Source: an uncultured Desulfomicrobiaceae bacterium
GTDB taxonomy: Bacteria > Desulfobacterota > Desulfovibrionia > Desulfovibrionales > Desulfomicrobiaceae
Assembly: GCA_937989665.1 (NCBI GenBank)
Contig: CALKRN010000006.1
Span: forward strand, 62,001-126,000
DNA: 64,000 bases
Reading direction: 5' to 3'
Part shown: piece after piece, positions 20,160 to 47,841 of the stretch
Position numbering within the stretch: position 1 is the stretch's first letter
Layout of the letters: each line of letters opens with the position of its first letter
The notes under the pieces: generated by a model
Seen by the model: only the letters and a program-made list of their open reading frames with translations
The model's database searches: none
What the model was told of the DNA's origin: nothing
Program-made: the position numbers and the translations under genes

Positions 20160-20255
20160 TCGCCTTGGGAAGGGACGGCCTTGTCCGCGGGAATCCCAAC
20201 CTCATCAAGGCACTCCAGCCCAGGCGCGGCGTGGTGGTCAAATGGGCGGCGGCTG

Positions 20256-20600
20256 ATGGCGCGCGACAATCACCCAAAAGAGCGCCACCGTCGGGGGCTC
20301 GAACGCAAGACAGGGCAGCGCGCCAGCTATGACCGCATCCGCATCGTCTCGGAAGGCAGCACGACCGAGCCCAACTATTTCAATGCGATCCGTTGGGCCG
20401 AGCGGTTGCACACGGTCCATGTCGGCGTTCAACCCAGAGAGCACCGCGCCGAACCCATCCAGGTGGTGGAGCATGCCAAGAAACTGTCCGAGTCCGGCAA
20501 CGGGGACAAAGGCATCCAGCCAGGTGCACGGGCGACGCAACGCGCACCCACAAACGTCTTGACGCCCTGGCCGCCTTGGGGCAAAGAAGCCCTCGCTTTC
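20256..20600 (+). pseudogene. RloB-like protein remnant (truncated, frame broken)
   Basis: The first ~75 codons from the ATG at 20256 match the start of RloB-domain proteins: basic N-terminus, YDRIRIVSEGSTTEPNYFNAI (about residues 25-45), then EPIQVVEHAKKLSESG and KGIQP. RloB proteins are about 200 residues and are often encoded with restriction-modification or abortive-infection loci. Here the frame stops resembling the family after KGIQP. A THKRLDALAALG segment, recalling the next part of RloB, appears in another frame about 25 bases later. The rest is missing and tRNA-Gly begins immediately after. I conclude it is a decayed fragment, probably of transferred DNA. Confidence 0.6.
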
Positions 20601-20602
20601 GA

Positions 20603-20678
20603 GCGGGTGTAGCTCAATTGGTAGAGTACAAGCTTCCCAAGCTTGGTGTCGCGAGTTCGATTCTCGTCACCCGCTCCA
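20603..20678 (+). tRNA. tRNA-Gly (anticodon CCC)
   Basis: 76 bases, CCA encoded. The acceptor GCGGGTG pairs with CACCCGC. D-stem GCTC/GAGT. Anticodon stem CAAGC/GCTTG with loop TTCCCAA, giving anticodon CCC (reads GGG). T arm GCGAG-TTCGATT-CTCGT. An intrinsic terminator follows at 20722. A broken RloB-like gene lies directly on its 5' side. Confidence 0.96.
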
Positions 20679-45705: not shown

Positions 45706-46302
45706 ATGCTGTTTGTGCTCCCGGATCTGCCCTATGCCAAAGACGCCTTGGCCCCTGTTATCAGCGCCAAGACCTTAGACTTCCACCACGGCAAGCACCA
45801 TCAAGCCTATATCGACAATACCAATAAACTCATTGCCGGTACGGAGCTGGAAAACCAAACCCTGGAAGCCATCATCCAAGCCACGGCCAACGACCCGAAG
45901 CGGGTAGGTATCTTCAACAACGCCGCCCAGGTATGGAACCACTCGTTCTACTGGCAGTGCATCAAGCCGGGGGGCGGGGGCAAACCGACGGGCCCGGTTG
46001 CTGAACGGATTGAACGCGACTTTGGCAGCGTCGATGCCTTTGCCGGGGCGTTCAAAGAAGCAGGCCTGACACAATTTGGCAGTGGGTGGGCCTGGCTCGT
46101 GGAGCGAGACGGCAAGTTGGAAATCATGAAGACCAGCAACGCCGACACGCCCCTTGCTCACGGCATCAAGGCCTTGCTGACCGTAGACGTTTGGGAGCAT
46201 GCCTACTACCTGGATTACCAAAACCGCCGTGGCGATTATCTCACGGAATTCATTGCCAAGCTTATCAATTGGGACTTCGTCAACGAACAACTGGCGAAAT
46301 AA
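45706..46302 (+). CDS. sodB: superoxide dismutase (Fe/Mn type)
   Basis: 198 residues, cytoplasmic. It converts superoxide to hydrogen peroxide and oxygen. Ligands: His27 in LDFHHGKHHQAY, His in NHSFYW (about residue 80), and Asp/His in DVWEHAYYLDYQN (about 163-175). LPDLPY and the Q in QFGSGWAWL (about residue 124-132) suggest the Fe form rather than Mn, though this is not decisive. It converges on bacterioferritin, with a 24-bp stem between, and both fit an oxygen-stress role. Confidence 0.93.
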   Translation: MLFVLPDLPYAKDALAPVISAKTLDFHHGKHHQAYIDNTNKLIAGTELENQTLEAIIQATANDPKRVGIFNNAAQVWNHSFYWQCIKPGGGGKPTGPVAERIERDFGSVDAFAGAFKEAGLTQFGSGWAWLVERDGKLEIMKTSNADTPLAHGIKALLTVDVWEHAYYLDYQNRRGDYLTEFIAKLINWDFVNEQLAK

Positions 46303-46318: not shown

Positions 46319-46370
46319 CCACCACACAAGACGGGCCGAACCATCAGGTTCGGCCCGTCTTGTGTGGTGG
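46319..46370. terminator. 24-bp perfect inverted repeat, shared bidirectional terminator
   Basis: Left arm 46319-46342, tetraloop ATCA, right arm 46347-46370, 24 of 24 base pairs. It sits 16 bp after the sodB stop and 18 bp before the bfr stop on the other strand. There is no T tract on either side. The arm length far exceeds a usual terminator. Confidence 0.75.
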
Positions 46371-46927: not shown

Positions 46928-47120
46928 AAACATCTCCTTTTCGTTTGGTAGGACAAACTCTATCGGACAGCGCTTGGCTCCGCATAGCCATTCCTCGGAT
47001 ACCAGTCGCCAACCATCCTCGCTGGGAGTCGGACCGAGCAAAGCATCCTCCTTATGCCCAACGAGACCGTCCCAAGCAAGCCCCCTTGCGAAAATAGTCT
47101 CCCCTGCGTATGCATATCGT

Positions 47121-47768
47121 ATGTGGAGCAAACGCCGTGCACGTATCCTCACCCCGGCAGCCCAGGCCATTGCCTTGGTTTTACAACGCGGGGACGCGGC
47201 CCTTGAATTTGCCATCGCAAGCCTTTGGCGCCGCTGGGAAGAAATTGTCGGCCCGCACCTGAGCCAGATCGTCGTCCCCCTTGGCCACCAGGGGGGCGTA
47301 TTGCGGGTTGGCGCCCAGCACCCCGCGATCCTCCAAGAGGCCTCGTTCTTTGCGCCGGCCCTGCTCGAGCGAGCCAACGCCCTGCTCGGGCAACCCTATT
47401 TTGAGGAAGTTCGTTTCGAGCTCCCCGGAGGGCATACCCCCCTCAACCAACACTTCCTTCCCCCGGCCCCGCCCAAGCCTTGCCTTGCCGCTCCCGGCCC
47501 TCTCGGAAGCCTCGAACTTCCCCCGGATTCTCCCATTGGCCGTGCCTATTATGCCCACGTTGCCCGCCGGCGATCCGCCCAAAACACCTCGGAGTTTCCA
47601 CTTGACAGCTCCCCCGTCCTCTCCCTAGAGGACGGCTTCCGTTCTGGGCGATCGTTCAACGGCAGGACAGCGGACTCTGACTCCGTCAATCTAGGTTCGA
47701 ATCCTAGTCGCCCAGCCAGGTCCCCATCGTCTAGCTCGGTCCAGGACACCGGCCTTTCACGCCGATAA
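47121..47768 (+). CDS. DciA-like DUF721 protein, C-terminus overlapping two tRNA genes
   Basis: The first ~100 residues match DUF721/DciA (replicative helicase loader family): SLWRRWEEIVGPHLSQIVVPLG and HQGGVLRVGAQHPAILQEASFFAPALLERANALLG. The frame then stays open through a Pro-rich linker, a hairpin, all of tRNA-Gln and most of tRNA-Glu, to a TAA at 47766. Residues after about 175 (GRTADSDSVNLGSNPSRPA) are translations of tRNA sequence and are unlikely to be functional. The ATG at 47121 has no clear ribosome-binding site, and the true 3' end may have been removed by tRNA insertion or deletion. Function in replication start is inferred from the family only. Confidence 0.7.
   Translation: MWSKRRARILTPAAQAIALVLQRGDAALEFAIASLWRRWEEIVGPHLSQIVVPLGHQGGVLRVGAQHPAILQEASFFAPALLERANALLGQPYFEEVRFELPGGHTPLNQHFLPPAPPKPCLAAPGPLGSLELPPDSPIGRAYYAHVARRRSAQNTSEFPLDSSPVLSLEDGFRSGRSFNGRTADSDSVNLGSNPSRPARSPSSSSVQDTGLSRR
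47602..47635 (+). promoter_or_regulatory. candidate tRNA promoter with perfect 9-bp hairpin
   Basis: TTGACA at 47602-47607 is followed after 17-18 bp by CTAGAGG, a poor -10, and the tRNA-Gln starts 20 bp later. Overlapping it, CCGTCCTCT (47614-47622), CCCT, AGAGGACGG (47627-47635) is a perfect stem with a 4-base loop. It lies inside the DciA-like reading frame. Confidence 0.35.
47645..47718 (+). tRNA. tRNA-Gln (anticodon CTG)
   Basis: 74 bases, CCA encoded. Acceptor TGGGCGA/TCGCCCA, D arm GTTC...GGAC, anticodon stem GCGGA/TCCGT with loop CTCTGAC, anticodon CTG (reads CAG), T arm CTAGG-TTCGAAT-CCTAG. Two bases before tRNA-Glu; one transcript is likely. Confidence 0.95.
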
Positions 47769-47797
47769 CAGGGGTTCAAATCCCCTTGGGGACGCCA
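47720..47797 (+). tRNA. tRNA-Glu (anticodon TTC)
   Basis: 78 bases, CCA encoded. Acceptor GTCCCCA/TGGGGAC, anticodon loop CTTTCAC with anticodon TTC (reads GAA/GAG), T arm AGGGG-TTCAAAT-CCCCT. The first anticodon-stem pair (position 27-43) is C-A rather than a pair; the other four hold. An intrinsic terminator follows directly. Confidence 0.95.
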
Positions 47798-47808
47798 AGC
47801 CAAACGTT

Positions 47809-47841
47809 GCCCCCACGAGAACGACTCGTGGGGGCTTTTTT
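47809..47841 (+). terminator. intrinsic terminator of the tRNA-Gln/tRNA-Glu transcript
   Basis: GCCCCCACGAG, short loop, CTCGTGGGGGC and then a six-T tract. It is a textbook stem and T run 12 bp after the tRNA-Glu CCA. Confidence 0.92.

Follow-up and report, generated by a model that had tools for sequence, protein, structure and literature searches.

Apparent lineage-specific loss of the dciA stop codon beside a tRNA-Gln-tRNA-Glu unit in an uncultured Desulfomicrobiaceae bacterium

The window analyzed here is a stretch of 64,000 nucleotides on contig C6 of a 2.13-Mb draft assembly (26 contigs, 85.66% complete), which is the only genome of its species. The reading frame of dciA on its forward strand (47121-47768, 215 aa) is free of stop codons through a complete tRNA-Gln gene and ends within a tRNA-Glu gene, both on the same strand. 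The features of this locus are as follows.

47086..47114 (+): possible dciA promoter, TTGCGA, 17 nt, TATGCA, ending 6 nt before the ATG (by eye; layout common to both congeners, G001 and G002)
47121..47591 (+): dciA (DUF721 helicase loader), the part homologous to the congeners (PF05258; 67% identity to both)
47592..47768 (+): extension of the dciA frame, 58 codons past the column of the sister's TGA, plus the TAA at 47766-47768 (translation, alignment, frame scan)
47602..47607 (+): TTGACA within the extended dciA frame, probable -35 box for the tRNAs (conserved position in relatives)
47614..47635 (+): perfect 9-bp hairpin (22 nt) over the -10 region (folding)
47626..47631 (+): weak -10-like TAGAGG after an 18-nt spacer (by eye; aligns with the TAAATG column of G001)
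47645..47718 (+): tRNA-Gln(CUG), wholly within the dciA frame (ARAGORN and Rfam RF00005)
47720..47797 (+): tRNA-Glu(UUC), containing the dciA stop at 47766-47768 (ARAGORN and Rfam RF00005)
47809..47835 (+): intrinsic-terminator-like site after the tRNA unit, 11-bp stem and T run (terminator scan)

The product of this frame is DciA: residues 16 to 99 match the Pfam domain PF05258 (DUF721) with an E value of 1.4e-14 over profile positions 5 to 89 of 89, and the score of 54.5 bits, against a curated cut-off of 24, makes it a family member with a complete domain. Both congeners share its first six residues, MWSKRR, which supports the ATG at 47121 as the start. Upstream of dciA, the genus displays a promoter-like arrangement (TTGCGA or TTGTCA, 17 nt, TATGCA or TAGGCM, about 6 nt before the ATG), recognized by eye; the consensus promoter scan did not call the window's copy at 47086..47114. 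No Shine-Dalgarno sequence was seen by eye before the dciA ATG in the genus, and the dciA mRNA there may be leaderless. Further upstream, a perfect 23-bp inverted repeat at 46319-46370, located between convergent genes that end near 46302 and 46388, is probably a two-way terminator.

The initial annotation had described the frame as open from the DUF721 domain to 47766, with about its last 40 residues made of tRNA sequence, and translation bears out both points. The first in-frame stop is the TAA within tRNA-Glu, and 41 of the 215 residues include tRNA nucleotides, starting from codon 175 (47643-47645). The remaining two frames close sooner, at a TAG (47626) and a TGA (47603). Both tRNAs score far above the RF00005 cut-off of 29 bits (tRNA-Gln, 57.9; tRNA-Glu, 58.3), and the 5' ends of both lie upstream of the sole dciA stop, which overlaps no next start codon; the next conserved gene begins at about 48133, beyond the terminator-like site. 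The tRNA-derived tail has no homologues to which it could be aligned. When the segment 47578-47797 was shuffled with its dinucleotides preserved, 1758 of 5000 shuffles remained open for at least 62 codons. Thus, the open run is ordinary, and the event that needs explanation is the missing stop rather than the length of the run.

The tRNA pair appears to form a separate transcription unit with its own promoter inside the dciA extension. TTGACA starts 41 to 47 nt before tRNA-Gln in 18 of the 18 distinct loci checked, a count that covers loci other than the 39 order-level ones sampled later. In the window, the dciA frame reads this hexamer as part of CTT GAC AGC, so that the frame that lost its stop takes in the probable promoter of the tRNAs as well as tRNA-Gln and part of tRNA-Glu. 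For the tRNA unit, no promoter was called by the consensus scan; given this and the weak -10 element, it is possible that the tRNAs depend on read-through from dciA. The hairpin over the -10 region folds with a modest z value of -1.74 (11 of 200 shuffles fold as well) and was not seen by eye in the aligned sequence of G001 or in the relocated tRNA unit of G002. The terminator scan recognized no terminator for upstream transcripts between dciA and the tRNAs. It found two sites of the kind seen after the tRNA unit, compared with 1.2 expected in shuffles, and a similar stem and T run is visible after the tRNA pair in both congeners.

The two congeners differ in their arrangement at this locus. 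In G001, the order is dciA, TGA, 61 nt, tRNA-Gln, and tRNA-Glu; the TGA aligns with GAG at 47592-47594 of the window, and the linker to the tRNA is longer than in the window. In G002, a TGA is found at the same codon and no tRNA adjoins dciA; the Gln-Glu pair, with TTGACA 42 nt before tRNA-Gln and a downstream stem and T run, sits elsewhere in the genome. DciA ends at 159 aa in both congeners, as against 215 aa for the frame in the window, and dciA directly precedes the tRNAs in two of the three genomes of the genus.

Among 69 dciA loci, 39 have these tRNAs downstream, and the window is the only one in which dciA and a tRNA overlap. The set consists of an initial 30 loci and 39 further order-level loci, the latter drawn among the matches listed from 199 genomes (194 with DciA) and comprising 38 with open frames of at least 226 aa that were not in the first set and one of 210 aa, with shorter-frame genomes left out. 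In the initial set, the other 16 loci bearing tRNA-Gln have 394 to 696 nt between the dciA stop and that tRNA. No overlap was found in the 39 order-level loci, 21 of which carry a Gln and/or Glu tRNA downstream. In five order-level loci (L133-L136 and L140), tRNA-Glu alone was found downstream of dciA, 110 to 229 nt past the stop, and tRNA-Gln was not found. The count does not include G035, with a dciA frame of 289 aa, or L031, a Desulfomicrobiaceae MAG whose sequence lies letter for letter within contig C175 of G001 and thereby fixes the family; L016 reaches its contig end before the dciA stop, and the sequence of a few other loci stops shortly past dciA, where tRNAs may have been missed. The initial annotation had named an independent stop in close relatives with the same tRNA spacing as refuting evidence; G001 has such a stop at a similar spacing and no other examined locus overlaps, which counts against a conserved overlap, and a conserved dciA-tRNA fusion was rejected at one locus in 69.

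The intervening gene varies among relatives, since the space between dciA and the tRNAs is filled by a DUF2927 gene (named from Pfam) in L007 and holds a different small ORF in L020. DUF2927 genes are found in 12 of the 22 family genomes, all of them in genus g4 and always next after dciA in coordinate order, that is, in 12 of the 19 family genomes outside the genus of the window and in none of the three within it. No DUF2927 match was found elsewhere in the window's draft (incomplete) genome or in 14 control genomes, with the g4 genomes serving as the positive control.

The simplest cause of the lost dciA stop would be a small linker deletion. By eye, an 11-nt deletion accounts for the alignment about as well as a one-base deletion does, given that the congeners share only 67% identity and the linker shows several differences. 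The initial annotation had proposed a deletion that both cost the gene its stop and joined it to the tRNA cluster. The TGA and longer linker of G001 agree with the first half of this proposal, a loss of the stop in this lineage with a small deletion as its simplest cause; the join, however, is older, because G001 already has it with the stop intact, and a single event for both was rejected on the same ground.

The explanation that we favor, with a probability of roughly 0.62, is a lineage-specific loss of the dciA stop beside an independently transcribed tRNA-Gln-tRNA-Glu unit, with the following consequences for the message. After the presumed small deletion, the tRNAs would be made mainly from their own promoter, from transcripts starting just before tRNA-Gln, and would be unaffected by dciA translation. 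RNase P would cleave, at 47644/47645 where tRNA-Gln begins, any dciA transcript that extends into the unit. Because both tRNA 5' ends precede the sole stop, every dciA message cut in this way would lack a stop, and the ribosomes on it would be rescued by tmRNA-SmpB; the genome encodes both tmRNA (185.9 bits) and SmpB (E value of 5e-57). Efficient tagging would deplete DciA, which is probably essential, so the mechanism needs leakage. Enough DciA could be supplied by ribosomes that finish on uncut transcripts or leave untagged, the domain itself ending at residue 99, and the tRNA-derived tail would have no selected function. A translated mRNA and tRNA processing had been expected to compete on the same RNA; such competition would be narrower than claimed, as the tRNAs appear to have a promoter inside the extension, and processing would thus be a greater threat to the dciA message than to the supply of tRNA. 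Being found in one genome only, the overlap is read here as a tolerated accident rather than a control circuit, and it looks like a recent one-off event, not a designed overlap.

To place this case among other overlaps in the same genome, same-strand frames were surveyed at the 41 tRNAs found there; the starts of several of these tRNAs are crossed by long frames, and eight frames besides dciA were inspected. Two frames with a recognizable gene, in addition to dciA, enter a same-strand tRNA:

L078:1530-2199 (-), contig C4 of the window's genome: tadA / tRNA-Ser(CGA) overlap (NCBIfam TadA)
about 20181-20612 of the window (L057:982-1413): RloB-like gene fragment, frame ending at the TAG at positions 8-10 of tRNA-Gly(CCC) (PF13707)

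Of the seven frames other than tadA, five have no match in Pfam, one is the RloB-like fragment, and one contains a thioesterase domain. The latter was rejected as an overlap of the dciA type, as its domain lies downstream of its tRNA. The RloB-like fragment matches PF13707 with an E value of 1.5e-7 and 32.2 bits (versus 31.5) over 50 residues, covering positions 2 to 56 of 195 in the profile, and may be what is left of a defence island at the tRNA.

The tadA gene of this genome has its stop 26 nt inside tRNA-Ser(CGA), and no TTGACA is present in the 80 nt before that tRNA. Among 30 tadA loci fetched (L078 and L082-L107 among them), tRNA-Ser(CGA) lies downstream in 29 and is overlapped in 19, namely, in all 17 loci from the same family (by 10 or 26 nt) and in 2 of the 13 from other families (by 24 nt). 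Five family genomes fall outside this count: three of them have a tadA match that came without a locus, and the other two have weak matches only. Genus g4 contributes 14 of the overlapping loci, and in these the tadA stop is the tRNA-Ser's own TAG, at positions 8-10. Excision of the tRNA may thus remove the tadA stop in the Desulfomicrobiaceae. Judged from these sequences, the tadA overlap is conserved, unlike that of dciA, and because tadA ends in tRNA-Ser(CGA) in every family locus fetched, overlaps of this kind are evidently tolerated in the lineage.

The possibilities that compete with a lineage-specific stop loss concern the assembly, the selective value of the overlap, and the point at which dciA transcription ends. 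The initial annotation had allowed for a frame change hidden from view, and the corresponding proposal is that the linker of the real gene contains a stop, which the assembly hides by lacking one base. A single lost base would indeed suffice to turn the TCG-TGA of G001 into the TCG-GAG aligned with it in the window, and the genome is a draft. However, each of the 15 other orthologous genes between 38 and 62 kb in the window matches the proteins of G001 and G002 in a single frame (as read from the protein alignment listing, with shadow frames left out), which makes poor assembly unlikely, and further length differences in the linker are what a real change would produce. A hidden frame change is possible, but we consider an error of this kind unlikely. 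We regard it as quite unlikely that the overlap is a selected one, with a natural nonstop dciA mRNA whose output is tuned by RNase P cutting and trans-translation, in the manner modelled for selB-selC and, with RNase III, reported for ArfA. The geometry, with both tRNA 5' ends before the only stop, would fit such a device, as would the presence of tmRNA and SmpB and of a second overlap of a coding sequence with a tRNA, that of tadA with tRNA-Ser, conserved in the family loci fetched; against it stand the occurrence in one genome only, the sister that keeps its stop in the same gene order, and the apparent conserved promoter of the tRNAs.

Finally, most dciA transcription could end before tRNA-Gln, for example, at the hairpin at 47614-47635, in which case there would be little effect on the tRNAs and the mRNA would still lack a stop. 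The stem is perfect over 9 bp and absent by eye from the compared sequences of G001 and G002, but it has no T run, was not called a terminator, and folds with the modest z value given above; this outcome seems to us very unlikely. A broader proposal, no less speculative than that of a selected overlap and in our estimate just as doubtful, is that in Desulfomicrobiaceae and their near relatives tRNA excision has repeatedly become a switch of mRNA 3' ends, with RNase P removing the stop of tadA and, newly, that of dciA. If this were true, the synthesis of TadA, itself a tRNA editor, and of DciA would depend on how translation, tRNA processing, and tmRNA rescue balance one another.

A loss of the stop beside the tRNA unit has partial counterparts in known systems. 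In Alphaproteobacteria, as described in Mukai 2021 (PMC8124441), selB contains a nested selC (tRNA-Sec) gene, and the proposal there is that processing of the tRNA leaves an mRNA without a stop; cases of partial overlap, in which the stop falls within the tRNA, are described as well. As in selB-selC, the dciA frame runs through an entire same-strand tRNA gene, and its C-terminal tail is translated tRNA. The selB-selC arrangement is conserved across many species, in contrast to the dciA overlap in a single genome, and in many though not all of the cases given in that account the selB stop overlaps the next start codon, which the dciA stop does not. In addition, the dciA overlap covers a whole tRNA and a portion of another, and its tRNA unit seems to have its own promoter. 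The Escherichia coli ArfA system, in the account of PMC3985003, relies on a natural nonstop mRNA that arises by an RNase III cut near the 3' end of the arfA mRNA, which is reported to be experimentally established and regulatory. Similarly, a cut before the dciA stop would yield an mRNA with no stop and a protein tagged by tmRNA; for dciA, however, the enzyme would be RNase P, as suggested by the geometry and by the presence of tmRNA and SmpB. AntiFam entries derived from ORFs that overlap tRNA genes treat the predicted proteins as spurious, according to PMC9710616. The dciA tail resembles this class in being a translation of tRNA sequence but differs from it in forming the end of a genuine gene and not a separate ORF. 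In searches of an open-access library, neither dciA nor tadA came up in a paper as overlapping a tRNA.

A natural loss of the stop beside a tRNA unit, together with a sister genome that keeps the stop, offers a clean pair for the effect of tRNA processing on a message that ends inside a tRNA. In turn, the overlap of tadA with tRNA-Ser, conserved in the family loci fetched, suggests that bacteria tolerate such messages, and may use them, more often than selB-selC by itself implies.
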